A DNA stretch of 64,000 bases from Paludibacteraceae bacterium (lineage in GTDB: Bacteria > Bacteroidota > Bacteroidia > Bacteroidales > Paludibacteraceae): positions 26,947 through 90,946 of the forward strand of contig JAFSMP010000015.1 of assembly GCA_017447875.1 (NCBI GenBank). Direction: 5' to 3'. Positions 18,197 to 34,569 of this stretch are shown in pieces. Numbering within the stretch: position 1 is the stretch's first letter; each line of letters starts with the position of its first letter. The notes beneath the pieces are model-generated. The model ran no database searches. It worked only from the letters and a program-made list of their open reading frames with translations, and was not told the DNA's origin. A program made the position numbers and the translations under genes.

Positions 18197-18260
18197 CAAA
18201 GATACAAAAAATATCGTACATTCATATGTAATTTTGTACAAAACTTTGTTTTTTTATTCA
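18197..18260 (-). promoter_or_regulatory. Promoter and putative HTCS operator for the PL11 operon
   Basis: Minus strand order: TGAATA (18260-18255), 14 nt, TGTACA (18240-18235), 30 nt, TATCTTTG (18204-18197). The arrangement matches four other promoters of this locus. The 15-mer ATGTAATTTTGTACA at 18226-18240 recurs exactly at 30707-30721. Confidence 0.7.
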
Positions 18261-18309
18261 AAATTGCCCCTAATAAGTGGTATAATTTTCTACTTTCATT
18301 TTTTTTTCG

Positions 18310-18317
18310 TATCTTTG
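18310..18317 (+). promoter_or_regulatory. -7 box of the HTCS gene
   Basis: TATCTTTG fits TAnnTTTG, 19 bp before the HTCS start. No clear TTTG at -33 and no TGTACA pair at the usual spacing, so the regulator does not look self-activated by this motif. Confidence 0.6.
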
Positions 18318-18336
18318 CAGGCAAATCATGTGAGTC

Positions 18337-21300
18337 ATGAAAAAGAAGTTTTTTTTGTTTCTCTCTGCGCTTTTCGTTTTCATACAAACGACAAGCGGTC
18401 AGCAGTTGGTTATTCAGCGTCATCTGACTACGGCGGATGGTCTTCCCTCCAACACGGTACGCCATATCATGCAGGACAGCTACGGCTATCTGTGGTTTTC
18501 TACAACAAACGGTCTGAGCCGATATGATGGTTATTCCATCCGTAATTACCGCCGTGCAGAGGGTTTGCAGGACGTTCGCATCAGTTACACCCGCGAGCAG
18601 GCGGATCACAGTATCGCCATCGTGACCACCCGGGGTGAGGTGTATCGTCTGGCGCAAGGAGCAGATACGGTTGTCTGGCTGATGAACGACCTACATGAGT
18701 TGCGTCCCGAGGACTCCGCCGCGCTACGGGATTCGGTTATTGCGGTCTATTCGGCATTGGGCGGAGACCACGCAACGATGGTAAACGCAATACGATATGT
18801 GATACGTGACCGCAGCGGATCGGTGTGGGTAGGAACGGAACAGTTCGGTTGTGAGCAGTTGGTGGACTACCAGCAGCAATGGGCTACTGTGCTTCACCCG
18901 ATGGGAAAGAAAGCGAATGATCCGCATAGCGATGATGACAACTGGCGGTACTTGAGCCGCGTCGGGGACCGGATAGAGACGGGCAACCACCATGCCGATA
19001 TTGTGGTGTATGACAGCACAATGACGAAAGTTGTGCAACACAAAAAGATGAGCGGCAATGTGTATTGCTCCGCACAGGACCACCGCGGAAAGACGGTCTA
19101 TGGTATCCGTAATGAGAACGACATCTATGATTTTCTAACCGACCGTAAGGGGCGTTTATGGACAGCCACGTTAGGGAAAGGACTGAGTGCTTACAGCCCT
19201 AACGGCGAGCTAATCGGCACGTATCTGACAGAACGGTACAGTCTGTCGCGTGTCCGATCCCTACAGGAAGACAAGCACGGCTATCTATGGGCAGGCACCA
19301 GTGAAGGTCTGGTCATCCTTCACCCGGACAGTATTCTGCGGAATCCCTCCGCCTACCGGCAATACACGACCCGAAGCGGTGCGCTCCGATCGGACGAGAT
19401 CCGATGCGTATATATCTCCACAGACGGAGAGGTTTATCTATCCGAGGCCGGCGAGGGTTTCTCCCGTACACGGGTGCCCGAAAAAGCCGAATATACGGAT
19501 CTGGTATTCGAGCACTATAACCAGACGCAGGGGCTTGCCAATAACATGGTACAGAGTTTTCTCTCCGACAAAGAGGGCAATATATGGATGAGTACGGAAT
19601 ACGGACTGAGCCGGTTTGACAAGCAGAGCAAAGCCATCGAGAGTTACATGCCGATGAGGCAGATGAGCAATATGGTGTTCTCGGAGCAGAGTGCGCTTCG
19701 TCTGCCGGACGGGAAACTGGTCTTTGGTAGCAGCAACGGATTAATGATGATTGATCCGGCGCAGATTCCTCCCGTGAAAGCCGCGGTTGTGCCCCGTATA
19801 GTGGATTACAAAGTAACGGAGGACGGCACACTGACAGCCTCTTTCTCTACATTCCATTACGCCGCCCATATACGCGACCAGTATGCCTTCCGTCTGGCTC
19901 CCATAGAAACTACTTTCTCACCTGCTTCGAGTCAAAACAGCGTTGTTTATCCCCAGTTAGAGCCGGGAGAGTACCAGCTCTATGCAAAAGCATTGAATGA
20001 AGACGGGCAATGGAGCGAAGCCGTCGTAATGAAGATTGTAGTACCTGCTATGTGGTGGGAAAGCCGGTTGGCTATCACCCTTTACTGGGTAGGCGGATTG
20101 ATTGTACTGGCGTTGCTTATTTACCTGACATGGTCGCGAGTGCGACTGCACGACAGGATGAAGATGGACGAGAAGATCACCGAAGCGAAGTTGGTATTCT
20201 TCACCAATATCAGCCATGAGTTCCGCACACCGCTTACGCTCATTCACGGCGCTATCGAACACCTACAGAAAGCGGATGGAATACCGGCAGACGAGCAATC
20301 TCAACTGAAGGTGCTCAAACGCAATTCCGACCGTCTGATGCGGCTGATAGACCAGTTGTTAGAGTTCCGCAGAATGCAGAATAAGGTGATGGCCGTACGC
20401 GTTGAGCCCATAGAGGTAATCGGATTGCTCCGGGAGTTAGGCGAGAGTTTCAGGCAGACTGCGGAGAGCAAGAATCTGCAATACCGCTTTGTATGCAGTC
20501 AGGATGCCCAGCAGGCGTGGGTAGATAGGAGTAATCTGGACAAGGTGTTCTATAACCTGCTGAGCAATGCCATCAAATACACGCCGGCTGGAGGAGAAGT
20601 CAGCATGGAGTGCATCATCTTCCGCAACGATGAGGGCAACCGGTGGCTGCGCGTAGCGGTGAAAGATACGGGTGTGGGTGTAGATAAGGCCAAGCGCGAC
20701 CATATCTTCGACCAGCGATTTGTACAGAGTATGCAGTTGAGGAGGAGTATGGGTATAGGTCTCAATCTATGCGCCGCGTTGGTGGATGTACACCATGGTA
20801 CTATCCGTCTGGAGCCCAATTCGCCTCAGGGAAGTGTCTTCATCGTAGAGATCCCGATAGAGCGGAGTGCGTACAGCGAGTCGGAGATCATGCAACACAC
20901 TACAAACGAGCGTTTGATAGAGGAAACGGAGAATGCCGTTGTAGAGAAGCCGCTCAACACCCAGCGTATTCTGCTGATAGAGGACGATGACGACATGCGC
21001 GAGTTTGTCAGGCAGGAGTTGAGCACCTATTTCGAAGTGCAGACTGCTCCCGACGGCGAAAGCGGATTGAAGGCACTGGAGAAAGAGCACTATGACTTGG
21101 TAGTGACCGATCTGATGATGCCGGGTATCTCGGGAATGGAGGTTATCCGCGCTATCCGAGACAATATCGCAATCTCCCATCTGCCGATAGTGCTGCTGAC
21201 CGCCAAGGACAGCGTAGACAGCAAGATAGAAGGTATGCAGAGCGGCGCTGACGCCTATATTACCAAACCTTTCTCTACGCGTCTGTTGGTAGCGACAATT

Positions 21301-21720
21301 GTCAACCTGATCAACCAGCGGGCACAACTGAGAGAAAAGTTCTCTAATGACCTGAGTATGTTGCATCCCGTGGTAACTACCAGCAATGCAGATAAGGCAT
21401 TCTTCGAACAATTGGATGCTTTAGTGGATGAGAATTTGGACAATAGCGAGATCTCCGCCGATGTCTTTGCCCGGAAGATGCTATTAGGGCGAACGGTGTT
21501 CTTCCGAAAAGTAAAGGAAGTTACCGGTTACAGTCCGAAAGAGTATCTGCGGGTACGAAGGTTGAAGCGAGCCGCCGAACTGCTACAGGAGGGTAAGCTG
21601 AGTGTGAGCGAGATAGCTTACACCGTGGGAATGAGCGATCCGTTCTATTTCTCCAAGTGCTTCAAACAGCAATTTGGCATGGCTCCTTCCGCTTATCAGA
21701 AAGAATGTACAAAAAACTAA
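18337..21720 (+). CDS. Hybrid two-component system sensor/regulator (HTCS)
   Basis: A single 1127-residue protein joining sensor, kinase, receiver and DNA-binding parts. In order: signal peptide; periplasmic beta-propeller repeats (GLPSNTVRHIMQDSYGYLWFST and later copies) and a Y_Y_Y-type domain to about 570; one membrane helix near 576-597; HisKA with phospho-acceptor His627 in ISHEFRTPL; HATPase (NLLSNAIKYTPAGG, DTGVGV); receiver with Asp925 in VTDLMMP; AraC-type helix-turn-helix at about 1040-1127. Such proteins sense a polysaccharide fragment in the periplasm and activate the matching locus. The sensor half is about 550 residues, shorter than the roughly 750 usual for this class. Likely ligand: a rhamnogalacturonan or pectin oligosaccharide. 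Confidence 0.95.
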   Translation: MKKKFFLFLSALFVFIQTTSGQQLVIQRHLTTADGLPSNTVRHIMQDSYGYLWFSTTNGLSRYDGYSIRNYRRAEGLQDVRISYTREQADHSIAIVTTRGEVYRLAQGADTVVWLMNDLHELRPEDSAALRDSVIAVYSALGGDHATMVNAIRYVIRDRSGSVWVGTEQFGCEQLVDYQQQWATVLHPMGKKANDPHSDDDNWRYLSRVGDRIETGNHHADIVVYDSTMTKVVQHKKMSGNVYCSAQDHRGKTVYGIRNENDIYDFLTDRKGRLWTATLGKGLSAYSPNGELIGTYLTERYSLSRVRSLQEDKHGYLWAGTSEGLVILHPDSILRNPSAYRQYTTRSGALRSDEIRCVYISTDGEVYLSEAGEGFSRTRVPEKAEYTDLVFEHYNQTQGLANNMVQSFLSDKEGNIWMSTEYGLSRFDKQSKAIESYMPMRQMSNMVFSEQSALRLPDGKLVFGSSNGLMMIDPAQIPPVKAAVVPRIVDYKVTEDGTLTASFSTFHYAAHIRDQYAFRLAPIETTFSPASSQNSVVYPQLEPGEYQLYAKALNEDGQWSEAVVMKIVVPAMWWESRLAITLYWVGGLIVLALLIYLTWSRVRLHDRMKMDEKITEAKLVFFTNISHEFRTPLTLIHGAIEHLQKADGIPADEQSQLKVLKRNSDRLMRLIDQLLEFRRMQNKVMAVRVEPIEVIGLLRELGESFRQTAESKNLQYRFVCSQDAQQAWVDRSNLDKVFYNLLSNAIKYTPAGGEVSMECIIFRNDEGNRWLRVAVKDTGVGVDKAKRDHIFDQRFVQSMQLRRSMGIGLNLCAALVDVHHGTIRLEPNSPQGSVFIVEIPIERSAYSESEIMQHTTNERLIEETENAVVEKPLNTQRILLIEDDDDMREFVRQELSTYFEVQTAPDGESGLKALEKEHYDLVVTDLMMPGISGMEVIRAIRDNIAISHLPIVLLTAKDSVDSKIEGMQSGADAYITKPFSTRLLVATIVNLINQRAQLREKFSNDLSMLHPVVTTSNADKAFFEQLDALVDENLDNSEISADVFARKMLLGRTVFFRKVKEVTGYSPKEYLRVRRLKRAAELLQEGKLSVSEIAYTVGMSDPFYFSKCFKQQFGMAPSAYQKECTKN

Positions 21721-21771
21721 ATCATTTGAACAATCATACGGGGTGCAAACCAAGATAAAGTTATACTTTTG
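21706..21771 (+). promoter_or_regulatory. Promoter and putative HTCS operator for the PL9 operon
   Basis: TGTACA (21706-21711), 15 nt, TGAACA (21727-21732), 31 nt, TACTTTTG (21764-21771). The first half-site overlaps the end of the HTCS coding region. Confidence 0.7.
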
Positions 21772-21782
21772 CACCGTGAATT

Positions 21783-21812
21783 AGTTGATAGTTGACAATT
21801 GATATTAAAAGT
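21783..21812 (+). repeat. Leader heptamer tract before the first fimbrillin-like gene
   Basis: Degenerate TTGATAG / TTGACAA / TTGATAT units end immediately before the ATG at 21814. Confidence 0.6.
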
Positions 21813-21813
21813 T

Positions 21814-23337
21814 ATGATAAAACGTATTTTTCAATCCATTATTATTTGTACCGCCGTACTGAGCCTTGTTGCTTGCGAAGGCAAGAAACAGGAAGAGGTA
21901 GCCAGTGAGGCATTAGGTGTCAAAGCCCGTATAATGGGTTTTGAGAGCAACAGCGAGTCATGGAGTGCCGGAGACACGATAGGTGTCAGTATTCCGGCGG
22001 TGAACAACAATTTCAATGTGCCTTACCGGACGGATGGTGACGGCGCTTTCAGCGCGGTGGGTTCGCCGGTGTATATCGTCGGTACGCAGGAGCATGAGGT
22101 GGCTGCCTATTATCCGTATTGTGCAGTTGCGACTCAGAGTGCGCCGGAGGTTGCATTTGAAGAGCCGGTAGATTGGCTTTTCGCCAAGACGACTGCGGAC
22201 AGGGGACATACCGCTTTGCAGTTAGAGTTCCACCACGTTATGTCGCGTCTGACGATACAGTTTTCCGAAGAGGTAAACTATCAGATATTCGGTATCGTGC
22301 AGTCCGGTAAGATTAATACGGCTACCGGAGCGGTTACTGTTACCGGTTCGCCGCAGGAGATTACAGGTAGCGGCAAACAAGTGGATATACTGGTACCGGG
22401 GCAGACTATAAACGGCTCGGCGAATGTTGTATGGGGTGAGCGCACGTTCATCGTCAGTCTCAACATGACATTAGAAGCCGGCAAACGGTATTCGTACCGT
22501 GCCACGTTAGACGAGGAGACAGAGTCTATCGCTTTGGAAGGTATCAGCGGCAGTATCGTGCCGTGGGAAGAAGTGGACGGAGGCGAACTGGTAGTGACCG
22601 AGAAAGAGCCGGATCTGAGTGTAGGCGACTATTACTTGGCGGACGGTACTACGGTGAGTCACCTGCGTACGCTGAGCGCAGCGCAGAAAGCACAAGTAAT
22701 CGGTGTAGTATGCGAGTTAGGGGTTAATTCCGACGACTCCACCCGCTTGGCGGATTTTCCCGCATGCACCACCGGTAAAGTCATTGCATTGTACGACGCT
22801 ACGGCTCGCGCATGGAACACCGAGAGTGTATCCACCACCATGTGCGCATGGATGATCAATCAGGGACTGGAGAACCAGTACCTCTGGCCGGCAAGATACA
22901 AGAAAGATGCGAGTGCCGAGGGTATGATCTCGTCTTCCGCAAGCGCCAACCGCGACAAGGTATGCCAAGGTTATAATAACACCAAGTTATGGAAACAACA
23001 TGTAGGTTCAACTACCACGTACGCCGCTCTGTCGGCTCTCGGCAGTATGAGTGCACCGGACGGTACAACCGGATGGTATATAGCCTCGGTAGGCGACCTG
23101 AGTGCGTTGCTGGTGGATGCGTCTATTGATCCCACCGTGCAGGCTTCACTCAATGAGTTAGGGGCGGCATTGCCTTACGGTCAATCTATATGGAGCAGTA
23201 CTGAGTCATGTCTCAATAACGGCAGCCAGGCTTCCATGACCGTTAACTTCAAGAACGGCGAGGGAAATGCTACTATTGGTCTGGGCAAAGCAATCCACAC
23301 CAAAACTTATCCGGTGGTGATGATGCTGAACTTTTGA
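21814..23337 (+). CDS. Fimbrillin-like lipoprotein with a lectin-like C-terminal domain
   Basis: A 507-residue lipoprotein; the ATG at 21814 is chosen over an upstream TTG because it gives a clean signal with lipobox LVAC (Cys21). Residues about 35-260 resemble the Mfa-like fimbrillin fold: the segment WSAGDTIGVSIP, an AAYYPYCA stretch and LEFHHVMSRLTIQF are typical. The C-terminal part (about 270-507) has ATTYAALSALG, GWYIASVGDLSALL and QSIWSSTE, resembling DUF1566 or formylglycine-enzyme-like C-type lectin folds. Inside a polysaccharide locus such lipoproteins are more likely surface glycan-binding proteins than pilus subunits; this is inference. First gene of the operon that ends with PL9. 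Confidence 0.75.
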   Translation: MIKRIFQSIIICTAVLSLVACEGKKQEEVASEALGVKARIMGFESNSESWSAGDTIGVSIPAVNNNFNVPYRTDGDGAFSAVGSPVYIVGTQEHEVAAYYPYCAVATQSAPEVAFEEPVDWLFAKTTADRGHTALQLEFHHVMSRLTIQFSEEVNYQIFGIVQSGKINTATGAVTVTGSPQEITGSGKQVDILVPGQTINGSANVVWGERTFIVSLNMTLEAGKRYSYRATLDEETESIALEGISGSIVPWEEVDGGELVVTEKEPDLSVGDYYLADGTTVSHLRTLSAAQKAQVIGVVCELGVNSDDSTRLADFPACTTGKVIALYDATARAWNTESVSTTMCAWMINQGLENQYLWPARYKKDASAEGMISSSASANRDKVCQGYNNTKLWKQHVGSTTTYAALSALGSMSAPDGTTGWYIASVGDLSALLVDASIDPTVQASLNELGAALPYGQSIWSSTESCLNNGSQASMTVNFKNGEGNATIGLGKAIHTKTYPVVMMLNF

Positions 23338-23369
23338 TAATTGATAATTGACAATTGATAATTGAGAAT
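23335..23369 (+). repeat. Leader heptamer tract (ATTGATA type)
   Basis: Units ATTGATA, ATTGACA, ATTGATA, ATTGAGA at period 7 fill the whole gap between a stop codon and the ATG at 23373. Confidence 0.75.
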
Positions 23370-23372
23370 ACT

Positions 23373-24146
23373 ATGAAAAAGATGATTATGGCTGCCATGC
23401 TGATGGCAAGTAGCGTGCTGAATGCACAAGTGGTTAAACAGGATCTGCTGAACGGTTACGCAGATGGTGACGTATTGGAGAAAGGCGCATATACGAGCAA
23501 GGAAGACGCTCCTAAAGAGGGTGTCTGGATGGGTGCTTTTACCAGCAAGGAAGAGAGTGCCGCTCTGCCTTCTCCTACTATCACCGCCGGTGTTGAATAT
23601 ACCGGTTATCCAGAGAAAGGCGTTGCTATCCAATTAGGTTTCAGTAATGGAGAGAAAGGCAGTCGCCACTCGTGCTGTGCCTTAGGTGACAACAAGAAAA
23701 AGGGTGTATATTACCTTAGTGCGGTAGTCCGCATGGACAAGGTGGGTAATACAGGAGACAGTGAACTGTTCGGTCTTACTCCCTCTCGCACCGGCGGAGC
23801 CGGCAAAGTGCGTGCGATGATCGTTCGCGACGAGGAGAACAAGAAAGTGATGCATTGGGGCGCTTCGCTGGGTAAGAATGTGGTGATGAGTCCGAAGGCG
23901 TTTGCTGTTGGCGAGACGGTGTTGGTTGTGCTCAAGGTGGATTACACAAAGAACAGCGTCAGTCTGTTTGTCAACCCGGATCTGAGTGCTGCTGAACCGG
24001 AAGCGTTAGTAAGCGTCAATTCCGATGAGGAGAACATGTTGAGCAAATGGCCTATTCGTACGCTGACCTTGCGCAACCGCAATGCGTATCAGGGAGCAGT
24101 CGGCAGTTTCCGTCTGACCAACTCGTGGGAACAATTGGCTAATTGA
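23373..24146 (+). CDS. Unknown secreted protein, jelly-roll-like, 257 residues
   Basis: Not recognised by name. ATG 23373 gives the signal peptide MKKMIMAAMLMASSVLNA. The mature part reads as a beta-sandwich of about 235 residues: GVYYLSAVVRMDKV, ETVLVVLKVDYTKNSVSLFVNPD and RTLTLRNRNAYQGAVGSFRL alternate strands in the way of LamG or concanavalin-like domains. It has no enzyme motif. Its place between two fimbrillin-like lipoproteins in the PL9 operon suggests binding of pectic glycan. Preceded by a heptamer leader. Confidence 0.6.
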   Translation: MKKMIMAAMLMASSVLNAQVVKQDLLNGYADGDVLEKGAYTSKEDAPKEGVWMGAFTSKEESAALPSPTITAGVEYTGYPEKGVAIQLGFSNGEKGSRHSCCALGDNKKKGVYYLSAVVRMDKVGNTGDSELFGLTPSRTGGAGKVRAMIVRDEENKKVMHWGASLGKNVVMSPKAFAVGETVLVVLKVDYTKNSVSLFVNPDLSAAEPEALVSVNSDEENMLSKWPIRTLTLRNRNAYQGAVGSFRLTNSWEQLAN

Positions 24147-24167
24147 AAATTGTGAATTGTGAATTAC
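24141..24167 (+). repeat. Leader heptamer tract (AATTGTG type)
   Basis: AATTGAA, AATTGTG, AATTGTG, AATTAC units run from the previous stop to the ATG at 24168. Confidence 0.7.
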
Positions 24168-24977
24168 ATGCGTAGTAAATTCATTCTATATGGTTTGGCA
24201 GTAGCGGCGTTGTGTGCATGCACGAATAATAAGGACGTGGGAGCGCGCATCAGCACGCGCATGAGTGCGCAGGCTTCGGCTCCGACGGATTTCCACGACG
24301 GCGACCGGATAGGCGTCAGTGCACGGGAGTTCAATGTTCCCGTTTGCACGAATCAGGCATGGCAGTACAGCAACGGCGTGTTTACGAGTGCAGACAGTAT
24401 CCTTGTGGAAGCGGGGAGCGAGTTGCGTCTGAGTGCTTATTTTCCCTATGAGGCGGCTTTGGATGAAGCGGCTCCGACAATCACTATCGACACGCGTACT
24501 GATGGCTATACCGATTACCTGTGGGCTGCGGACACGCTGACGATGAGCAGCAGCGGAATGCAGGCCGAGTTAAGGTTCCGCCACGTGTTGGCGCGTATCG
24601 AGTGCGTCTTCCGTCCATCCGCCGAGTATCCGCAGGACGGGACGCTGTCGTTCGTCTTGAGCGGTATGCAGACGAAGGTGGAGAAGAACGTACTGAACGG
24701 CGCAGAGACGCTGTCGGGCGAAGCTGTTATCACCCGAAGCACACAGCCCGGGCAACCGATTCTGATAGAGATACCGGCACAGAGTGCGCGTCCCGTTATC
24801 TCCTACGAATACGCAGGAAACAGCTATAGCGTAACGCCCGTCACGGATCAGCAGTACGAAGCGGGACGCAGTTACCGCTATGAAATAGCATTTGGTCCTG
24901 AGAGCGATCCTACTATCTCGCTCATGCAGGTCAGCGAACAGAGTACTAACTTTCAATTACTTCCTCCCCGCCGATGA
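24168..24977 (+). CDS. Fimbrillin-like lipoprotein
   Basis: A 269-residue lipoprotein with lipobox ALCAC (Cys18). The mature part matches the N-terminal fimbrillin-like region of the protein encoded at 21814: FHDGDRIGVSAREFNVP, LRLSAYFPYEAA and ELRFRHVLARIECVF correspond segment by segment, so the two look like paralogues. It lacks the lectin-like C-terminal domain. ATG 24168 is chosen over an upstream GTG within the repeat leader. It overlaps the PL9 gene by ATGA (24974-24977), so lyase translation is probably coupled to it. A surface glycan-binding role is inferred. Confidence 0.75.
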   Translation: MRSKFILYGLAVAALCACTNNKDVGARISTRMSAQASAPTDFHDGDRIGVSAREFNVPVCTNQAWQYSNGVFTSADSILVEAGSELRLSAYFPYEAALDEAAPTITIDTRTDGYTDYLWAADTLTMSSSGMQAELRFRHVLARIECVFRPSAEYPQDGTLSFVLSGMQTKVEKNVLNGAETLSGEAVITRSTQPGQPILIEIPAQSARPVISYEYAGNSYSVTPVTDQQYEAGRSYRYEIAFGPESDPTISLMQVSEQSTNFQLLPPRR

Positions 24978-26905
24978 GAACTTTCATTACTTTGGCATTG
25001 GCTTTGGCGTTGGCGTTCACGACCTCGTCACAGGCTGCATGTTATTATATCGCACCTACGGGCAGCGACAGTAACCCGGGAACCGAGTCCGCTCCGCGAG
25101 CCACACTGGGCGGAGGCCAGCAGTTGCTCTCTGCGGGCGATACGCTGTATATGCGCGGGGGAACGTATCAGGTAGCTATGAGCGAGATTATGTCGCTTTC
25201 TGACAAAGGTGCCAGCGCATTCTCATACGTCTATCAGCTCAACAAAACCGGTATCAACGAAACGCGCAGGACGTGCTATTTCGGTTATCCGGGCGAGAGA
25301 CCTGTGTTTGATTTCAGTCATGTGCTGCCCAACTCTCGTGTGAGTGCTTTCAGTCTTGTGGGGGACTATCTGCATCTGAGAAATTTTGAGATAGTGGGTG
25401 TCAAAGTACCGGTAACGGGTCACGCGCAGAGCGAGTGTATCTCTGCGCGCAAAGGCAGTTACTGCATCGTGGAGAACATTGCGATGCACGACGGCATGGC
25501 GATCGGTTACTATCAGACTTCGGGTCATAATAACTTAGTGCTCAACTGCGATGCATACTGCAATATCGACACCGTGTCTGCCAAGGGCGTGAGCGGAGAG
25601 ACCTTGGGAGGCAACGTGGACGGTTTCGGTTGTCATGTCACCAACGAGGCAAAAGATACGGCGAATGTGTTCCGCGGTTGCCGCGCATGGTGGAATTCCG
25701 ATGACGGTTTTGACCTCATCAACTGCAAGTGCAAAGTGGTGATTGACTCCTGCTGGTCGTTCTACAACGGCTATATCCCCAACGGCAACAAGGCGATTGC
25801 GGACGGTAACGGCTTCAAGGCAGGAGGGTATGGAATGTCTTCGCCCATAAGCGGCAATCCCGCAGTTATTCCTATGCACGAGGTGAAGAACTGCGTAGCG
25901 TTCTACAACCGCGCCAACGGTTTTTACGCCAACCACCATTTAGGCGGTCTGCTGATAGCCAACAACACGGCGATGTACAACTCCAACAACTTCAGTATGA
26001 CCAACCGCAAGACGGCTAATACAGACAGTACTCCGGCGGAGAATGTAAGCGGCTACGGACATATACTGATCAATAACGTGTCGTACAATCCCAATAAGGG
26101 GTTAGACTACGGGTCTATCGACAGCGCGAAGTGTGAACTAAGGAACAACCACGTAGTGAGCGATGAACACGTGTTCATCAATGCCACACGTCTCAGTCCG
26201 AGCAATATGTACAAGATCAGCCTGACTGCAGCGCGAGAGGCGGACGGACGGTTGCCCGAACAGACATTCCTGGTAGCACCTTTAGGAGGCGTACTGGAAC
26301 AAGCAGGTGCCGGCTATGCCTATACGCCATGGGCGTATGATCTGAGTATTGGCGAGACTACATGGGCATCGCTGTACTTGGAGCACCCGGTGCGTCTGCC
26401 TCAAGCGATAGAGGCGTACTATGTGATTAAGATGGACAGCGTAGCGACGATGCGCCGCTTGCCGGCAGGGTGTATTCTGAACCGAGAGACACCTGTCTTC
26501 TTGCATAGCGAAGAGGCTGCAGGGCTGACACTCCCTTATGCCGTCGCTACGGCATATAAGGCAGATACGGCAGTTGTACAAGGCAATCTGTTGTCCGGAA
26601 CATTGGCAGACAGTATCGTAGCAGGCGGTAGGACGTATGTGCTCAGTTCGTCCTCGCCCACCAACAGCGAGGATGTAGGGCTATACCTCTACGGCACGTT
26701 AGGCAGTACGGTCACGCTTCGTAACCATAGTGCTTTTCTGAATGTTCCTTCGCCGTCCGCTGCTCCTGCGCTGTTGCGTATGAGGACAGAAGAAACCGAA
26801 GTTCCGAATGAGAACTCCGGTAATAGTGCAGCACGCAAAGTGCTGAAGAACGGTCGGTTGTACATTGAATACAACGGCAGATGGTACGATCTACTCGGCA
26901 GATAA
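24974..26905 (+). CDS. PL9 pectate lyase / polysaccharide lyase with C-terminal tail
   Basis: A 643-residue secreted parallel beta-helix protein. After a signal peptide it begins YYIAPTGSDSNPGTESAPRA, a hallmark of PL9-type lyases, and continues with WWNSDDGFDLI (metal-binding Asp residues) and DGNGFKAGGYG (catalytic-lysine region) near residues 235-280. PL9 enzymes cut polygalacturonate or rhamnogalacturonan by beta-elimination. From about 420 onward lies a beta-rich region, and the extreme end KVLKNGRLYIEYNGRWYDLLGR is the shared C-terminal tail found on six secreted proteins here. Last gene of the four-gene plus operon. Confidence 0.9.
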   Translation: MRTFITLALALALAFTTSSQAACYYIAPTGSDSNPGTESAPRATLGGGQQLLSAGDTLYMRGGTYQVAMSEIMSLSDKGASAFSYVYQLNKTGINETRRTCYFGYPGERPVFDFSHVLPNSRVSAFSLVGDYLHLRNFEIVGVKVPVTGHAQSECISARKGSYCIVENIAMHDGMAIGYYQTSGHNNLVLNCDAYCNIDTVSAKGVSGETLGGNVDGFGCHVTNEAKDTANVFRGCRAWWNSDDGFDLINCKCKVVIDSCWSFYNGYIPNGNKAIADGNGFKAGGYGMSSPISGNPAVIPMHEVKNCVAFYNRANGFYANHHLGGLLIANNTAMYNSNNFSMTNRKTANTDSTPAENVSGYGHILINNVSYNPNKGLDYGSIDSAKCELRNNHVVSDEHVFINATRLSPSNMYKISLTAAREADGRLPEQTFLVAPLGGVLEQAGAGYAYTPWAYDLSIGETTWASLYLEHPVRLPQAIEAYYVIKMDSVATMRRLPAGCILNRETPVFLHSEEAAGLTLPYAVATAYKADTAVVQGNLLSGTLADSIVAGGRTYVLSSSSPTNSEDVGLYLYGTLGSTVTLRNHSAFLNVPSPSAAPALLRMRTEETEVPNENSGNSAARKVLKNGRLYIEYNGRWYDLLGR

Positions 26906-27307: not shown

Positions 27308-27326
27308 CGTTGTGTCCTCCTATTCA

Positions 27327-29306
27327 TTATTTAACAATCTGTCCTTGTACGTTATACTTCACGCCGTCGCGGATGATGATGAGTTGTCCGTTCTCGAAGC
27401 GTTTGTTTGTTTGCGCGGTGGAAGTTTGCACTTCGTCAATCGCCGTTGGAGTATTGTATGGTCCTACATGCACGCGCATTCTCGGAGCCGCAGCTCCTCC
27501 TCCGCCGTAGTTGAGGTATGCCTTGTTCGCCGGTATGTATGCACCGGTGTAGCGAATGAGGCACACGGTGCCGTTGTCATCATAGAGGCTATAGGTAGTG
27601 CCTGATTCGGTATCAGTGCTCGGGTTCGCAGTACGGGCTACGGTACCTGTGAAGAGGTTTTTCGCGATAGCGGGTGCACCGAGCGTATATGGGAGTTGAT
27701 AATCACCATCTGTTTCGGAATAGAGGAATACGCCGGTGTTCGCAGGTATAGCGGAGTTCTCCACCTTGTTGATATAGAGTACATCTTCGTCTCCCTCTTC
27801 ATCGCGAACGATGTCCGCTACGTAGGCATACACGCCGGATGGCAGTTCTACATCCTGCGGAGCGCAGAAGGAAGCCCAGTTGTTAGAGATGGTAACGGGG
27901 TAATAATCATTTACGTAGCCGAAGAGCGTAATGATAAGGTACATTGTGCCGGAAGTGCTTACTTCCAGATGATTAGACGGTGTAGCCAGTTCCCACTCAT
28001 AATATGGTGATTCCGTATTCGCAACTGCCGGGCCATAATTTTTACCATTAGCACCGTTCACTTTGATAGTACGGGTTCCAGAGCTTGCTCCAGTAGCAGC
28101 ACGGATACCGATTTTCTCAATGACATAATTACTTGGTGCAGCGATTGTAATTGTAGAAGCATCTTGTACACGGAGAGCTTTTGTTCCTGTGGCATCACTT
28201 TCGCTTGTATATAGAAGGATGTTATTTGCAGTAGAAAAGCCTTGTTTACCTGCTTCCTGCGAAACTGTGACCGTAGAGAGTGCGATATTGCCGCTATAGA
28301 TAATTACAGCATTTTTGTCGAAAGATAGCGATTCACCACTCATGGCAGGAGCAATAGGTTCCAAATCTTTCTCTACAATGAAAGCAAGCGGATAGACAGC
28401 TCCACCAACACCTTTAATAGAAATGATATTTACCACGCCATCCACCATCGTCAGTTCTTTCTCTACGTTTGCTTCACTTCCTGTTGAGTTTGTTACGTTC
28501 TCTGCGGCTGCTCCATTGAGCGAAACAGCAAAGCCACGTTCACTCGCTGCACGACCGACAAAAGTCACTTTCTTTGCATTCTTTACACGGAAAGTAAGGT
28601 TAGTGTTTGTGCCCAATTGCCATGGTTGAACATTGTTATAGGCAGTGCCGTCAATTGTGTAGTTTTTTGCTTCGCGGCGCGTAGTGCAAGTTGTTTCTAC
28701 GCCCGTGATATCATCCTTGAAGAGGGTTACTACTGCTTTCGTTGTTGTAGCTGCATATACGGATTTTGGTGTTACTTCAATGCTGCGAACATATCCTGTA
28801 CCGGCACTCATGTTGATGACTACATTGCCATCAGTGAGAACCATAGAAGTATATGTCTGATTGTTTCCATCCAAAGCAAGCGAAGAAGTTAAGGCGTTAG
28901 ACACCGCCATCGTAGCCGCATTTTCTCCGTCGCGCTTTACTGTGATGGCGAGATCCGATCCGGCTTTGCAGTTCGGAATAACGATTGAAGGGTTCACACC
29001 TGATGCTTGAGAAATCAGACGAATACCTGAACCATTAAAGAAGACACGGAACGTGTTGCCACGAGTCAAGAACTTGAGTCCTTCCGTTGGAGCAAACTTT
29101 TGTCCGTCGGCTACGTAGAGTTCTTCCGCCGTGTCCTGACTTTTGTAATAATAAGATGAGCTTTTGAGGGTCCAATAATCTGTGTTCACTTCTGTAGCTC
29201 CTTCGGGATAGAAGTCCGTTTGTGCAATGGACGTGAAAGTCCATGATGCAGCATTCAACGCAAGGGAGAGAAGTGCTGCTGTTACGATTAATATTGTTTT
29301 TTTCAT
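27327..29306 (-). CDS. Secreted multi-domain beta-rich protein with C-terminal tail
   Basis: A 659-residue secreted protein (signal MKKTILIVTAALLSLALNA). No catalytic motif is recognised. It reads as successive beta-sandwich modules: residues about 20-180 (SWTFTSIAQ to YVRSIEVTP), about 185-320 (VTLFKDDITGVET to YPLAFIVEK) and about 330-470. Similar modules appear in the proteins encoded at 29467 and 31324. A further region (480-620) has an NWASFCAPQDVELP start. The end TNKRFENGQLIIIRDGVKY belongs to the shared tail. A carbohydrate-binding role for pectic glycan is inferred from the location. Confidence 0.7.
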   Translation of the reverse strand: MKKTILIVTAALLSLALNAASWTFTSIAQTDFYPEGATEVNTDYWTLKSSSYYYKSQDTAEELYVADGQKFAPTEGLKFLTRGNTFRVFFNGSGIRLISQASGVNPSIVIPNCKAGSDLAITVKRDGENAATMAVSNALTSSLALDGNNQTYTSMVLTDGNVVINMSAGTGYVRSIEVTPKSVYAATTTKAVVTLFKDDITGVETTCTTRREAKNYTIDGTAYNNVQPWQLGTNTNLTFRVKNAKKVTFVGRAASERGFAVSLNGAAAENVTNSTGSEANVEKELTMVDGVVNIISIKGVGGAVYPLAFIVEKDLEPIAPAMSGESLSFDKNAVIIYSGNIALSTVTVSQEAGKQGFSTANNILLYTSESDATGTKALRVQDASTITIAAPSNYVIEKIGIRAATGASSGTRTIKVNGANGKNYGPAVANTESPYYEWELATPSNHLEVSTSGTMYLIITLFGYVNDYYPVTISNNWASFCAPQDVELPSGVYAYVADIVRDEEGDEDVLYINKVENSAIPANTGVFLYSETDGDYQLPYTLGAPAIAKNLFTGTVARTANPSTDTESGTTYSLYDDNGTVCLIRYTGAYIPANKAYLNYGGGGAAAPRMRVHVGPYNTPTAIDEVQTSTAQTNKRFENGQLIIIRDGVKYNVQGQIVK

Positions 29307-29377
29307 TGTATTAAGTTGTTTTTATTATTCCATGTTATCCGATTGCCGTTCCTTTTTCGTGCCGGAGTCGTTCCGGC

Positions 29378-29421
29378 AATCCTGTGTTAATGCTGTGTTA
29401 ATCCTGTGTTAATCCTGTGTT
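29378..29421. repeat. Period-11 tandem repeat, four copies
   Basis: AATCCTGTGTT repeated four times, with one C-to-G change in the second copy. It lies in the 160-bp gap between two secreted-protein genes of the same operon, after a GCCGGA/TCCGGC hairpin. Confidence 0.85.
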
Positions 29422-29466
29422 GAAGACAGCAGTTTGGATTAGGGTTCGAGGCATGCACGGGTTATG

Positions 29467-30588
29467 TTAGAGTTTAGCGCCAGTGAGGGAATAGCGGATG
29501 CCGTCACGGATGATGACGAGTTGTCCGTTCTCGATGGCTTTAACGGCTTTGTGTGTTGCCGGTGTATTGTCGATAGCGGTCGGTATTACCGGGTCATCAC
29601 CGGGTTCTTCGGTGGCTTTCTTGACGACACTGAAGCCGAAGAGGTACATACCTCCGTCCACGCTGAAATAGAGCGTTGCAGCCTGTGCACAGTCGTAGGT
29701 GCCTACTTGTATTACCTGCGAGTCCGCAGTGCCATCGGTAGTATGGGTAATGACAGCCGTCTTGTCGCTCAGCGAGCCTTCGGAGAGATAGAGACTGCGG
29801 GTAACGTCAGCATTCTTGGTAGAAGACATCGCATAGACTGTAACGGTAGCAGGGTACTGTACATCGACCGTAGCGATGCGTCCGTTGCTCTTGGGTGAAC
29901 CCGCGAAATAGAGTGCTTTGGTGAAAGAGAGCGACTCGTAGCTGCGTTTTACGGAATGAATCCTCATGAGGTTCTTGGAATCCGTTTCTTCTGCCGAGTA
30001 AACATGTACGCCGTTGGAGAAGAGGGAGTCGGTCCAAACGGTGTCAACGGAGTACGCCTCGAAGCTATAGAAGATGCTGTCCGAAACGACAGGAGCTGTC
30101 TCTCCGTTAGAGGTGAATACCACTTTGTAGAGATAGATGCCGCCGTTGCTTTTAAGCTCGGTTGTACCATACTTGATGTCGAAAGAAATCACATTGTAGA
30201 AATCGCGATTGTTTACATCATCGTGTTCTTTTTTGGTATCTTTGGTAACATCGCCAACCGTAATATGACGTTCAGCATCTGATCCACTGCAAACGTATAG
30301 TTCCAGTGTTCCGGAATAAGTAGAAGTAAATGTACATGTACGAGATTCCGAGCCAATTGATCCCGAACCGGAAGCAATCATACCTACAGACTTTTTATTG
30401 TCCTCAGCGGTTCCGAAATAGCGTCCGGAAGTAGCACTGTGCGAACCATCCCATCCAGCCACTGTCATTGTGAAGTCTCCTTCACCATAGGTTTGATTAC
30501 CCGTAGAACCCTCACCGAACGTGAGTGTTTGTGCATTCATGCTGCCTGCCATGAGTGCGGCAGCAAAAAAAGTAAAAATCTTCTTCAT
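29467..30588 (-). CDS. Secreted two-module beta-rich protein with C-terminal tail
   Basis: A 373-residue secreted protein (signal MKKIFTFFAAALMAGSMNA). Two beta-sandwich modules of roughly 150 residues are visible, the first ending GGIYLYKVVFTSNG and the second, from DSIFYSFEAY, ending GGMYLFGFSVVK. The parallel endings mark them as repeats of one module type, shared with the CE12 protein and the 659-residue protein. The end KAIENGQLVIIRDGIRYSL is the shared tail. No enzyme motif is seen; an unclassified carbohydrate-binding function is the best guess. First gene of its minus operon, under a putative HTCS operator. Confidence 0.7.
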   Translation of the reverse strand: MKKIFTFFAAALMAGSMNAQTLTFGEGSTGNQTYGEGDFTMTVAGWDGSHSATSGRYFGTAEDNKKSVGMIASGSGSIGSESRTCTFTSTYSGTLELYVCSGSDAERHITVGDVTKDTKKEHDDVNNRDFYNVISFDIKYGTTELKSNGGIYLYKVVFTSNGETAPVVSDSIFYSFEAYSVDTVWTDSLFSNGVHVYSAEETDSKNLMRIHSVKRSYESLSFTKALYFAGSPKSNGRIATVDVQYPATVTVYAMSSTKNADVTRSLYLSEGSLSDKTAVITHTTDGTADSQVIQVGTYDCAQAATLYFSVDGGMYLFGFSVVKKATEEPGDDPVIPTAIDNTPATHKAVKAIENGQLVIIRDGIRYSLTGAKL

Positions 30589-30655
30589 GATATAAAATTG
30601 TTATTTTTTATTAGTTGCAGATTAAACAGATTAAGCAAATTTCCAAAGTGCGATG

Positions 30656-30721
30656 CAAAGGTAGTGCTTTTTGTGAATATTCATAGTATATGCTCGTTCA
30701 AAAGGCATGTAATTTTGTACA
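30656..30721 (-). promoter_or_regulatory. Promoter and putative HTCS operator of the beta-rich protein operon
   Basis: Minus strand order: TGTACA (30721-30716), 15 nt, TGAACG (30700-30695), 31 nt, TACCTTTG (30663-30656). Confidence 0.7.
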
Positions 30722-30728
30722 GATGTCC

Positions 30729-31379
30729 TTATTTCAGTACTAATTTACCTTCTTTCTCGTACTGTTTGATGAGGATGAGGCAATCTCGGAAGATGTCCAG
30801 GGGGGATTGTTGCGTGAGGGTGTCCGTGCGGAACGCATCATAGCCGATTGTGATGCCGTGGGTCATGGTAGTGATGTCACCGCCCCGGCTGACCTGTTTG
30901 TCGAGCCATGTACGGAACGCCTGTACGGAAGGCACGTTCTTTCCTCCGAACGAGAACTGTTTGAGCCGTGGGGAGAGTCCGAGCGAGTCGCAGAGAGCGA
31001 GCAGAGAGTCGGACTTATGGTTGTAGGGCAAAGCGAGTGCCGTAGGATGGACTCCGAGACGGGCAAAGACAGCGCTGTCTCCTTTCCGTATTTCCTGCGC
31101 GGCTTCGGCGAGGGACATTTTGGTGAGATCCCGATGGGAGAAAGTGTGGTTGCCGATCGTGTGTCCGTGCCGGTACAACAAGGCAGCCTGTTCCCATGTA
31201 CAAGCAGCCGCTCCGCGTATCTCTTTGCGGCGGTCAATATTCCGTGGAATCAGATAGAACGTCCCTTTCATTTCCAGCGAGTCGAGCAAAGGCATGACAA
31301 CCGTAGCGTGCTCCGCCAAGCCGTCATCGAAGGAGAGCGTCAGTTGCAACACGGATGCCAGTAAGAGTATAGATTTCAT
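30729..31379 (-). CDS. Polysaccharide deacetylase (NodB-like) family protein
   Basis: A 216-residue NodB-homology protein. Metal-binding motifs are SFDDG (residues 16-20) and HTIGNHTFSH, and a late segment TTMTHGITIGYD fits the final histidine motif. The ATG at 31379 (MKSILLLASVLQLTLSFDDG) makes a signal-like stretch that runs straight into the first catalytic motif, so if cleaved it would lose the DD pair; it may be cytoplasmic or membrane-anchored, or the true start may be upstream (frame open to 31439). It overlaps the CE12/SASA esterase gene by 56 bp. Removal of N- or O-acetyl groups from a glycan is the family activity; the substrate is unknown. Confidence 0.75.
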   Translation of the reverse strand: MKSILLLASVLQLTLSFDDGLAEHATVVMPLLDSLEMKGTFYLIPRNIDRRKEIRGAAACTWEQAALLYRHGHTIGNHTFSHRDLTKMSLAEAAQEIRKGDSAVFARLGVHPTALALPYNHKSDSLLALCDSLGLSPRLKQFSFGGKNVPSVQAFRTWLDKQVSRGGDITTMTHGITIGYDAFRTDTLTQQSPLDIFRDCLILIKQYEKEGKLVLK

Positions 31380-34300
31380 GATTGCGGATGATGAATATTT
31401 GTCCGTTACGCAGCACTTTGGTTGTCTGCGGAGTATCAACGGCTGCGTTGATGTCTGTTGTTACTCCGCCTCCTTCCCCCGGCAGTTCATCGTCTCCTCC
31501 GTCGGGTATGGGTTTAGGCAAGTATTGCAGGGAATGGAGATAGTAGGCATTGTCGGAAGTGAGATAGACGACACCGGCTACAGCCGTTGTGAAACGCAAG
31601 GTAGTGCGGTGGGACTCGCTCTCTGCAGCTATCTCTCCGAGGGTCTTGGAAGCCACGGTGTCTCCGTTCATCCATAGGGTCATACGCCGGGCGGTGTTGC
31701 TGACATTGGAGGGTTGCACCTCCGCGATGATGGTACCCGGATAGGCTATATTGAGGGCATAGCAGCGGTCGTTCGCCGAGCTGACAACCATGCCTGCCGT
31801 GCTCGTAGGAGAGACAAAACCGGCAGGACTGGAGTTGGTATAAGCAGCGCCGGATTTCTTGACGATAGCGTGCGAACCCGTATAACCGCGGAGGTAGAGA
31901 CCGTTCAAACAGACGAGCGATTTTGCAATCGTATCGCCGTTGGCGTAGGCAGAGAAAGTCCAAGTGGTGGTATCGGTCACCACCTGTTCGTCGCCGAAAT
32001 CAATACCCAGTTGTGCTTCGGGTACTCCGGGAAGGGTGTCCTCGACGGTGATGCCGTAATCGCTCAGGAGTCCGAGCTCGCAGAGACGGTTGTAAGCGCG
32101 GTGACCATAGAGTTCCTGCGAGGGTGCGTCAAAATGCTTGAGGTCGGACAGCATCGTACCGTCCTGCATATCGATGACATAGACATTCGTCATAGTCCGG
32201 GCAAGGCTGTATTGCGCCCGCTCGATAGTAGCGTTATAAAGCGAACTACGCTTACTGACCGTTCCCATGATGAAAGGGAGCGTGGCGTAGTCGGTGTTGC
32301 CGGTGATAGCGACCAGCGAGTCGCGGATATAGGTGATGAGGTCGCGGAGGTTCTGTTCATACTGCGCAGCGGCGGACGAAGGCGAGCGGTCACTCTCGCC
32401 CTGATGCCAAAGGACACAACGGATGTCTGCGTCCAGGTCTTGGTTCGCCAGTGTGGCGAGACACGCACGCGCGTTTGCAAGAAGCGCAGGTGCAAGTGCT
32501 TTGCCGTCCAGTCCGGAGGATGTAGGTTGTAGCCCCACTATACCCGCTGTGTCCAGATAGGAAGGCTCAACCGACCAATGACGGTTGCCTGAAGAAGCAC
32601 ACGCCGGCGAGATAGACGAGCCTCCGGCTGACTCCTTAATAATATACACGTTATGCGCAGGCGCGAGGTGTTGCGCCAGTTCGTAATAGACAATCGCATC
32701 ATACGCCCATCGTCCGAGCGTTGTTCCATTACTGCCCTCGGCTGCGGGGATGAAAGGGGCGAAAGCGCCCAGCCCTCCGGTGTAGTCCCACCCGGCGCTG
32801 TTGCCATAACTCCAGAAGACACACTCCATACCTGTCTCACCCACAGCAGCCGTCAGATAAGCCGGCTGCGTCTCCAGTTTGCCTCGCCCGTCCGTATTGC
32901 TCTGTCCGGCCGTAATGATCACGGGAACACGAGTCTTGGCGGGCGTCTCTCCTCCTTCATGCAAGCGATCCTCCGAGTCATCAGCGTCCGGCACGTATTT
33001 GACGGCATAGACGCGATAGGCTACCGTGGCTCCGAAGAAGAAAGTACCTCCGGTAGAAGCGTGTACCTGATACGTTGCCGGGGTGGAGGCGGAGGAGAGA
33101 GTGTTGGTCTCGATGCTCACGGAGTCTGCGCCGTTGAAAAGGATCTTGAGGAAACGTCCGGCGGTGGTGATGTTTTCCGGCGCCATAGAGACGAAGAGCG
33201 TACCCTGTCCTGCGGTGTTGAGTGCAAAAAGCGGCGTGGTCGTGTTAGAGGCTGCTATCCCTGCCGTAGCGTCGGCGTCGATGCCGGAGAAATTACCGGC
33301 AGCCACACGGGCGTACATGGTTGTTTGCTCGTTGAGGAAATCCACCGTGGATTTGCCGCTGCGGACGGAGATAGAGCGGTTATAACTGCCGTTGCTGCTG
33401 CGGGTGTTATGTCCGCGCAGGTAGAGCCCGTCGAGAAGCACGACAGAGGTGGCGATAGTGTCTTTGTCGGCATAGCCGCGATTGTCAAAACGCCAGACGA
33501 TTGAATCCGTCACCACGGCTTCCTGGCTCGCAAAATCACTTTTCTGCGGGATAGTGATGTTCGGTTTCATCGCATCAATAAGCGGCTGGTAGTCGGCGAT
33601 AGCAGCTCCGTTGATGGACGCGGCAGTCCATGAGGCAATGTCGTTATTCACCCACGCACACACGGCACGCGCACCGGCTTCGCTGGTATGGGTGGTACCA
33701 CCGGCAGGGAAGAAGACCGCGCCCGTGATACTCTTGCCGCAGGACTCCCAGATGGTTTGGCTACCGAGGTTCATATCGAGACAGGGGATCTGCAAGGACG
33801 CTGCTAACTGACGCGCTTGCAGCGGGTAGTTGAGCTCGTTGTTACCGGGTTCGCCTGCTGCATCTCCGGCGTCTATACGCCCGAGTGCGGTCAGTGTATT
33901 ACCACTCCAGAGACTACGGCAGATGCTGGTACCGAGAATCGGGTACGCGCCGGCTGCTTTCACCTCATTGACCATGCGCGTGAGATAGGTCAGGTATTCG
34001 GATTCCGTGACGGTCTTATAGCCGTTGTGTACTGAAGAAGGACCGCCTTTCTGGTCGTTGTGACCAAAGGTGATGATGACATAATCGCCAGCCTCCACAG
34101 CGGTGAACCCCGCTACGTAAGGACGCTCCAGCAGGTAGGTCTGATAGCCAGAAGAGTTATAATCGGTGATGCCCATAACCGCTTTCCAGTAGTTGGCGGA
34201 GGAATAGAAACCCTTTGCCGTTGTGCCGGTGTGCGCCCAGTCCTGAACGGTCATGCCGTTGATGTACTCCCCGAAGAACTGCCCCCAACCGCGCATTCCG

Positions 34301-34446
34301 TCCGTGTAGTCTTTGTTCGCGGACGCCTGATTAGACTGATCGCCGTAGATACTGGACATGGAGTCGCCGATGATGTGCACCTTGGCGGCGGAGAGTTGTC
34401 CCACTGCGAGGGAAAGCAAAATTGCTAAAAAGAAATGTTTTTTCAT
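31324..34446 (-). CDS. Double pectin esterase: CE12 plus SASA (CE6/CE20-like), with beta modules and tail
   Basis: A 1040-residue secreted esterase. ATG 34446 gives the signal MKKHFFLAILLSLAVGQLSA. Domain 1 (about 22-275) is a CE12 rhamnogalacturonan acetylesterase: GDSMS with nucleophile Ser29, FGHNDQ, and a late THTSEAG with the catalytic His. Then a beta-sandwich module (about 310-480). Domain 2 (about 505-770) is a SASA-type acetylesterase: ITAGQSNTDGRG with Ser516, and VLWHQGESD. A second beta module (about 800-970) and the tail KVLRNGQIFIIRNHEIYTL follow. Two unrelated esterases in one chain suggest acetyl groups at different positions of rhamnogalacturonan. The start is corrected from a longer open frame that would cross its own promoter. 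Confidence 0.88.
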   Translation of the reverse strand: MKKHFFLAILLSLAVGQLSAAKVHIIGDSMSSIYGDQSNQASANKDYTDGMRGWGQFFGEYINGMTVQDWAHTGTTAKGFYSSANYWKAVMGITDYNSSGYQTYLLERPYVAGFTAVEAGDYVIITFGHNDQKGGPSSVHNGYKTVTESEYLTYLTRMVNEVKAAGAYPILGTSICRSLWSGNTLTALGRIDAGDAAGEPGNNELNYPLQARQLAASLQIPCLDMNLGSQTIWESCGKSITGAVFFPAGGTTHTSEAGARAVCAWVNNDIASWTAASINGAAIADYQPLIDAMKPNITIPQKSDFASQEAVVTDSIVWRFDNRGYADKDTIATSVVLLDGLYLRGHNTRSSNGSYNRSISVRSGKSTVDFLNEQTTMYARVAAGNFSGIDADATAGIAASNTTTPLFALNTAGQGTLFVSMAPENITTAGRFLKILFNGADSVSIETNTLSSASTPATYQVHASTGGTFFFGATVAYRVYAVKYVPDADDSEDRLHEGGETPAKTRVPVIITAGQSNTDGRGKLETQPAYLTAAVGETGMECVFWSYGNSAGWDYTGGLGAFAPFIPAAEGSNGTTLGRWAYDAIVYYELAQHLAPAHNVYIIKESAGGSSISPACASSGNRHWSVEPSYLDTAGIVGLQPTSSGLDGKALAPALLANARACLATLANQDLDADIRCVLWHQGESDRSPSSAAAQYEQNLRDLITYIRDSLVAITGNTDYATLPFIMGTVSKRSSLYNATIERAQYSLARTMTNVYVIDMQDGTMLSDLKHFDAPSQELYGHRAYNRLCELGLLSDYGITVEDTLPGVPEAQLGIDFGDEQVVTDTTTWTFSAYANGDTIAKSLVCLNGLYLRGYTGSHAIVKKSGAAYTNSSPAGFVSPTSTAGMVVSSANDRCYALNIAYPGTIIAEVQPSNVSNTARRMTLWMNGDTVASKTLGEIAAESESHRTTLRFTTAVAGVVYLTSDNAYYLHSLQYLPKPIPDGGDDELPGEGGGVTTDINAAVDTPQTTKVLRNGQIFIIRNHEIYTLTGIRVATDALLR

Positions 34447-34465
34447 GATTCGTTGAATTTTGGCG

Positions 34466-34569
34466 CAAAGGTACTGCTTTATGCGCGTATAAGCATAGAA
34501 AAATGTACATTTTAGCCTAAAATATGTACAAAAGTATATTGTAGCATTCAAAAAAAAGCAGTATCTTTG
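34466..34569. promoter_or_regulatory. Divergent promoters sharing one putative HTCS operator
   Basis: Minus -7 box TACCTTTG (34473-34466) and plus -7 box TATCTTTG (34562-34569) flank two TGTACA half-sites (34504-34509 and 34525-34530), 15 nt apart. The nearer half-site is 30 nt from the minus box and 31 nt from the plus box, so one site can serve both the esterase operon and the SusC operon. The sequence between is also a near palindrome (TTTTAG-CC-TAAAA). Confidence 0.75.

Follow-up and report, generated by a model that had tools for sequence, protein, structure and literature searches.

Which protein reads the paired TGTACA-like sequences that precede five promoters of a presumed pectin locus, and how is the locus switched on through them? 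The locus lies in a 64,000-nucleotide stretch from a Paludibacteraceae bacterium (GCA_017447875.1, contig JAFSMP010000015.1, positions 26,947 to 90,946 of the forward strand), referred to below as the window, and it encodes a hybrid two-component system protein (HTCS). The gene and the five elements, P1 to P5, are the following, each element being written from its distal half-site to its -7 box.

18337–21720, plus strand: HTCS, 1127 residues, with Reg_prop, Y_Y_Y, HisKA, HATPase_c, Response_reg and AraC-type HTH_18 domains in a single chain
18197–18260, minus strand: P1, TGAATA at 18260, N14, TGTACA at 18240, N14, TGTACG at 18220, N10, TATCTTTG at 18204–18197
21706–21771, plus strand: P2, TGTACA at 21706, N15, TGAACA at 21727, N31, TACTTTTG at 21764–21771
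30656–30721, minus strand: P3, TGTACA at 30721, N15, TGAACG at 30700, N31, TACCTTTG at 30663–30656
34466–34530, minus strand: P4, TGTACA at 34530, N15, TGTACA at 34509, N30, TACCTTTG at 34473–34466
34504–34569, plus strand: P5, TGTACA at 34504, N15, TGTACA at 34525, N31, TATCTTTG at 34562–34569

These repeats are real and non-random. P1 to P5 are very probably the HTCS operators of the locus, and the comparisons given below support five promoters of enzyme and transport genes as the targets.

The sequence-only reading of this DNA had proposed that each of the five promoters carries two TGTACA-like half-sites 14–15 nt apart, the nearer one 30 or 31 nt upstream of TAnnTTTG, and base-by-base reading bears this out. 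The gap between half-sites is N14 in P1 and N15 in P2–P5, the distance to TAnnTTTG is N30 in P1 and P4 and N31 in P2, P3 and P5, and the repeat period of 20–21 bp, found in all five, fits the two-box HTCS repeat that precedes operons of polysaccharide utilization loci (PULs). The -7 box TAnnTTTG of the sigma-ABfr promoter, a type described for Bacteroides thetaiotaomicron (B. theta; PMC7366714), is present in P1–P5, 19–67 nt upstream of the first start codon. It was also correct that the HTCS gene and the remaining promoters of the window lack the pattern: the other 27 TAnnTTTG sites have at least four mismatches, and among them is the promoter of the HTCS itself (TATCTTTG at 18310), where the operator site is absent.

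Two of the elements are less simple than had been proposed. In P1 the N14/N30 pair is confirmed, but there is a third half-site, TGTACG at 18220, separated by 10 nt from the -7 box. Since the pair 18240/18220 is better than 18260/18240 (ranks 1 and 20 with the matrix described below), P1 appears to be most aptly described as three 20-bp repeat units, of which the two next to the -7 box, at that distance of 10 nt, form the strongest pair. The divergent promoters P4 and P5 do have both hexamers in common, at N30 and N31, but the palindrome that they were said to form is imperfect, with its inner arms 2 nt out of register. TGTACA is its own reverse complement, so that the hexamers shared by P4 and P5 are uninformative on repeat direction. 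When the seven half-sites of P1–P3 are judged by flank columns taken from other genomes, four favor the transcription strand and two the opposite strand, with one tie. The distal half-site of P2 (21706–21720) falls within the final codons of the gene for the HTCS, and the operator may therefore constrain the C-terminus of the protein.

The genome is a 2.25-Mb metagenome-assembled genome (MAG), 77% complete, and the sample analysed besides the window consists of 58 stretches (981,685 bp, 44% of the assembly) with 694 TAnnTTTG sites. The pattern of the earlier reading has five matches in the window, whereas 400 dinucleotide shuffles, made within blocks of 500 bp, average 0.0025 matches and reach at most 1. 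The genome scan that this reading had called for, run on these 44% of the assembly, gave no match in the 58 stretches. If two mismatches are allowed in the TGTACA pair, it stands before 5 of the 32 TAnnTTTG sites in the window versus 2 of the 694 in the sampled rest, and one of these two has a normal -33 element. As the pattern had been defined on these same five promoters, an open search was also carried out, covering all hexamers, gaps of 8–69 and spacers of 0–44 in sets of 32 TAnnTTTG sites. In the window, TGTACA (N14–15, N30–31) shares the first place, at 5 of 32. Without a filter, A/T-rich or core-promoter hexamers reach 3–8 in 16 other sets of that size; with at least two G/C and a gap of at least 25 they reach 2–4, and under the same filter one of 40 random AT-rich sets reaches 5 and nine reach 4. 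The open hexamer search is by itself only moderately strong, and the main weight of the argument is carried by other genomes.

In these, sites were counted per TAnnTTTG, with at most three mismatches over both half-sites, N14–15 and N30–31. The HTCS relatives compared include those of G388, G288, G569 and G573 (46–48% identity), G579 (40–46%), G503 (41%) and G197 (40%), besides others. Contig C23 of G009, which belongs to a different species in the same genus and has a rhamnogalacturonan (RG) locus that was found by its 45% identical SusC, has 3 sites among 15, and the other G009 contigs have 0 of 14. Two of the three precede PL4 lyase genes, the second of which is followed by a leucine-rich repeat (LRR) gene and susC, while downstream of the third the contig ends; the HTCS promoter of G009 lacks the site and possesses a canonical -33. 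In contig C6 of G580, a Prevotella sp. RGIG3765 MAG (locus L069), there are 4 sites among 42, one before a PL4 gene and the others before genes that match no Pfam family; one of these genes starts 163 nt from the -7 box. G579, an uncultured Phocaeicola sp. MAG with an RG locus (L068) of RGL11, GH28 and GDSL genes, has 3 of 87 on contig C2 and 0 of 48 on C17. With N29–32, counts are 1/31 in G594, 1/56 in G592, 0/22 in G591, 0/42 in G581 and 0/35 in G582. The sites of G579, G594 and G592, which belong to one genus, are 20-bp direct repeats. For comparison, the window's own genome outside the window has 4 of 518 (first 38 stretches), other loci retrieved by relatedness have 2 of 866, and seven stretches of the same genus with an HTCS of other clades have 0 of 116.

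The geometry can be judged in two further ways. Over 51 shifted geometries the mean number of matches is 0.27 in the window (maximum 3), 0.08 in G009 C23 (maximum 1), 0.16 in G580 (maximum 2), within 0.08–0.27 in G579 C2, and 1.29 in the rest of the window's genome (maximum 7). When any distance of 8–60 nt between the pair and TAnnTTTG is allowed, the pairs with at most three mismatches that fall at N30–31 are 5 of 13 in the window, 3 of 3 in G009 C23, 4 of 8 in G580, 1 of 1 in G594, 3 of 9 in G579 C2 and 1 of 10 in G592, and 5 of 80 in the control formed by the 58 stretches. These distance counts appear to give partly independent support for the N30–31 rule. A chance origin of the repeats was rejected on the shuffles (0.0025), the absence of the pattern from 982 kb and these free-gap counts.

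The half-site is longer than the hexamer, extending over about 17 bp, and consists of TGTACR and a CATG-like second box. The repeat unit of the G579 genus is likewise about 17 bp long, as in TGTACAAAATTCCATGT and TGTACGATTTTCCATGG of G592, with a 20-bp period and four copies in G579; in the sites of this genus the second box makes the repeat direction plain. In the window, P1 and P3 contain TGTACAAAATTACAT and P4 contains TGTACATTTTTCTATGC. A matrix was built from 26 half-sites of other genomes, the window contributing none, and half-site scores were capped at 8 before ranking. Over the window and the 982 kb (about 1.05 Mb, both strands), P1 (18240/18220) ranks 1, P5 2, P2 4, P3 9 and P4 11, the six remaining pairs of the top 11 being elsewhere in the genome; the matrix half-sites were hand-picked among sites obeying the TGTACA rule, which ties the first six columns to the finding itself. 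Omitted from the matrix are L148-9906, L204-17045 (= L068+16149), L104-1652 and L109-8695, which have 3 mismatches and no identified target gene, as well as L211-11950 and L212+12029 (4 mismatches). A CCATGG pair was sought in the window, G580, G009 and G503 and gave 0 at up to two mismatches. An array in L068/L205 that had seemed to point at a GDSL gene (TGTTCG, N29) does not do so, as its four copies run in the opposite direction once the second box is included.

The nearer half-site lies directly upstream of the -33 position. The general promoter, taken from 277 AT-rich TAnnTTTG regions, is TTGCATATnTCA at -23 to -12, followed by GTAnnTTTGC. A canonical -33 is lacking in P1, P2, P3 and P5 (scores of -3.0, -10.9, -4.4 and -4.2) and partial in P4 (5.2), against 9.7–19.3 in six canonical promoters of the window. 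In G009 the scores are -4.5 and -2.9 for the two promoters of PL4 genes and 18.1 for that of the HTCS. Off-locus promoters of the window at 7846, 10658, 10754, 55839, 55935 and 57439 have the strong extended -33 (TTGCATATnTCA) typical of the genome.

As to the reader, the AraC-type domain of the HTCS resembles 12aw_A, an entry named hybrid two-component system protein (E 5e-28). The arginine of SoxS that aligns with residue R of FFRKVK in the first helix-turn-helix (HTH1) of the HTCS belongs to a recognition helix, where it contacts DNA. At this position there is Arg in the window, G579-C2, G594, G592, G009 and G503 and Lys in G580, on contigs that have TGTAC or CGTAC boxes, and there is Gln in G579-C17, Asn in G591, G582 and G009-C27, and Ser in G581, on contigs without TGTAC boxes. 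In G579-C17 and before an AraC gene of G591 (-7 box TACTTTCG), box 2 is kept at 20 bp and box 1 is different. This covariation comprises a handful of cases noticed post hoc, and the joint difference of box 1 and HTH1 in two related HTCS is suggestive of the HTCS as reader.

The earlier proposal that the HTCS reads the sites thus stands on this co-difference and on their recurrence at equal distance in RG loci with related HTCS, but several observations weigh against it. The HTCS of G388, G288, G569 and G573 have the most similar DNA-binding domains (60–63%) and the same Arg, with no TGTAC pair; the fetched contigs give 0/49, 1/53 (a three-mismatch TGTAT pair), 0/8 and 0/28, respectively, and a search for an alternative half-site at equal geometry in these four (g114) found only weak, mostly A/T-rich matches. 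G197, with Lys, has 0 of 16, G141, G149 and G187 have 0/24, 0/19 and 0/21, and the one site of G503 (1/88) is 21 kb from its HTCS. The G579 genus has just one to three sites per contig, some of them before a gene for a 340-residue AraC protein or a gene-free stretch. In the window's own genome, the second off-locus pair with two mismatches, TGTACG-N15-TGTACC-N30-TAATTTTG (L138:17185–17249, plus strand; contig C55, about 62185), has the N15/N30 geometry and precedes a BspA-like LRR-type gene, directly after a 369-residue AraC-type gene. P1 fits the distance rule poorly. A poor -33 is not specific either, as the HTCS promoter of the window scores -1.3; it is compatible with an activator and no proof of one, because 46% of the 277 regions, non-promoters included, score at most 3. 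With all this taken into account, it is still judged likely, from the comparisons above, that the HTCS at 18337–21720 has its operators in these five elements.

The main rival explanation, which is considered unlikely, is that the sites are read by a separate one-component AraC-family regulator encoded elsewhere. The genome of the window contains 19 HTH_18 matches, and the C55 pair follows an AraC-type gene; a strong site also stands before the 340-residue AraC gene near the RG locus in G579 and G592 (proteins 61% identical), which is compatible with autoregulation. The HTCS is, by contrast, the sole HTH_18 protein on the window's 91-kb contig, and a separate regulator would have to account for box 1 and HTCS HTH1 differing together in two cases. 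Among the loci searched, which include the 19 HTH_18 loci of the window's genome, the 340-residue protein has full-length relatives in just two other genomes, G592 and (at 45%) G591; matches in that genome and in G009 reach only 25–37%, mostly over the DNA-binding domain, and there are none in the site-bearing stretches of G580 C6 and G594. This protein was therefore held to be an unlikely shared reader. Its gene is preceded by a 20-bp direct-repeat site in three genomes of one genus (L206:12188–12265, minus strand; L224:18562–18648, plus strand; L229:10252–10340, plus strand), and in G591 box 1 of this site differs, as does HTH1 of the HTCS.

It is less probable still that the sites are HTCS operators whose distance to TAnnTTTG has no function, some of them, such as P1, being repressor or autoregulatory sites. 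The strongest P1 pair, only 10 nt from the -7 box, would agree with this, as would some pairs at other distances in G580, G579 C2 and G592, and the HTCS BT0366 is reported to be bound at activated and at repressed loci (PMC3404733). Yet the 30/31 spacing occurs in all five promoters, and with distances of 8–60 nt allowed N30–31 is taken by all 3 pairs of G009 and by 4 of the 8 of G580, versus 5 of the 80 in the sampled remainder of the window's genome. The idea that the elements are a general promoter type of the genome is just as improbable and was rejected on the genome sample: P3–P5 do share an AAAGCA(G/C)-TAnnTTTGC context with the off-locus promoters 55935 and 57439, and TTTTAGCC likewise recurs in off-locus promoters, but the TGTACA pair is no part of the TTGCATATnTCA plus GTAnnTTTGC type and is found, as said, in 2 of 694 cases at up to two mismatches, and as the full pattern in 0 of 694.

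If the HTCS is the reader, the genes placed under its control would include the following:

16377–18173, minus strand: rhamnogalacturonan lyase RGL11, first gene downstream of P1
15094–16380, minus strand: GH28, P1 gene set
11703–15134, minus strand: Glyco_hydro_88 and GH106 domains in a single frame, P1 gene set
21814–23337, plus strand: fimbrillin-like protein (Mfa_like_1), first gene downstream of P2
24974–26905, plus strand: Pel9A-like beta-helix protein, downstream of P2
29467–30588, minus strand: 373-residue protein with no Pfam family, first gene downstream of P3
31324–34446, minus strand: GDSL and SASA carbohydrate esterase, downstream of P4
34595–37759, plus strand: SusC-like transporter, first gene downstream of P5
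37756–39351, plus strand: SusD-like protein, P5 gene set
39380–42487, plus strand: GH2 family glycosidase, P5 gene set

The gene at 27327–29306 (no Pfam family) is probably also served by P3. This content (RGL11, GH28, Glyco_hydro_88 with GH106, Pel9A-like, GDSL/SASA, SusC, SusD, GH2 and one HTCS) fits a rhamnogalacturonan I/pectin locus. Among 120 other genomes of the genus no close relative of the HTCS was found (best identity among the matches listed, 37%); the SusC has a match at E 1e-150 in 1 of 177 other genomes, and at E 1e-280 a search of 393 genomes of the order returned only the protein itself. Because relatives of both proteins are scarce in the genus, the locus (contig C33 of the window's genome, G000) may have been horizontally acquired. 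That the five promoters are the complete regulon, as had been proposed, is unproven on a sample that covers, besides the window, 44% of an assembly estimated to be 77% complete.

The mechanism proposed for the HTCS is as follows. Its periplasmic sensor would bind an RG-derived oligosaccharide, leading to phosphorylation of the fused receiver domain, which would free the C-terminal AraC-type domain. Two monomers could then occupy both half-sites in head-to-tail order along the same side of the helix, as 20–21 bp correspond to two turns, with TGTACR recognized by HTH1 and the weaker CATG-like box, about 10 bp farther along, by HTH2. Bound immediately upstream of where the -33 would lie, the pair would probably recruit the housekeeping RNA polymerase to TAnnTTTG; recruitment is thought probable because the -33 is poor in four of the five promoters and partial in P4. 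A single pair (34504–34530) would serve both the divergent esterase and susCD promoters.

In G579 (L205:5238–5350, plus strand) and G594 (L222:6374–6490, plus strand), an HTCS-type operator and a -7 box lie between the GDSL and GH28 genes, antisense to GH28. From the -7 box on, 51 of 56 nt are identical, with a short hairpin and seven T. An HTCS-controlled small RNA is a possible but weak reading of this stretch, because it folds no better than shuffles (z -0.76 and -1.02).

AraC-family activators such as AraC at araI and MarA/SoxS adjoin the core promoter through a domain with two HTH motifs, which binds bipartite half-sites in direct repeats two turns apart. Here, by contrast, the regulator would be a hybrid membrane kinase, and the core promoter has the -33/-7 elements of Bacteroidota instead of -35/-10. 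HTCS operators that are direct repeats of about 21 bp are of a kind known since 2013, when HTCS motifs with a mean distance of 21 bp were predicted, two RG regulons among them (PMC3878776). In B. theta, HTCS_Rgu-1 (BT4111/BT4124) has 12-bp sites with a 9-bp spacer and HTCS_Rgu-2 (BT4178/BT4182) has 14-bp sites with a 6-bp spacer (PMC3878776). Like these (Ravcheev et al. 2013), the present elements are two-box repeats, probably direct ones, before RG operons adjoining HTCS genes, a likeness of architecture that leaves aside the half-site letters, given there in a figure and supplement. The parts of PMC3878776 seen report neither a fixed distance to the -7 box nor a weak -33 nor covariation of helix and box. 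Binding of HTCS regulatory domains to PUL promoters has been demonstrated by ChIP-seq (PMC3404733) and by electrophoretic mobility shift assays (PMC5061871, PMC11253607). For BT0366 (arabinan) and BT4124/BT4663 of B. theta, direct promoter binding was measured, whereas the present case concerns another genome and PUL and is built on sequence alone. A literature search found no paper linking TGTACA with a hybrid two-component system, and no prior description of the shared half-site, the distance rule or the helix/box covariation was found in the parts of the HTCS literature covered, which do not extend to published supplements.

These observations could be drawn together into a code for one clade of HTCS, in which HTH1 reads box 1 (TGTACR with Arg or Lys, another box with Gln, Asn or Ser), HTH2 reads the conserved CATG box, and the nearer half-site, 30–31 nt from TAnnTTTG, takes the place of the -33. 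This code is tentative, and we would put it at somewhat less than an even chance. Bacteroidota can have up to dozens of HTCS, and the targets of most are guessed from neighboring genes; of the 36 HTCS of B. theta, 16 have a predicted DNA motif (PMC3878776). A half-site found in several genomes, a fixed promoter geometry and a plausible rule relating a residue to its box make regulon prediction testable in uncultured species. If the code is true, operators, targets and the partners of orphan HTCS would be predictable from sequence across the RG loci of Bacteroidales.

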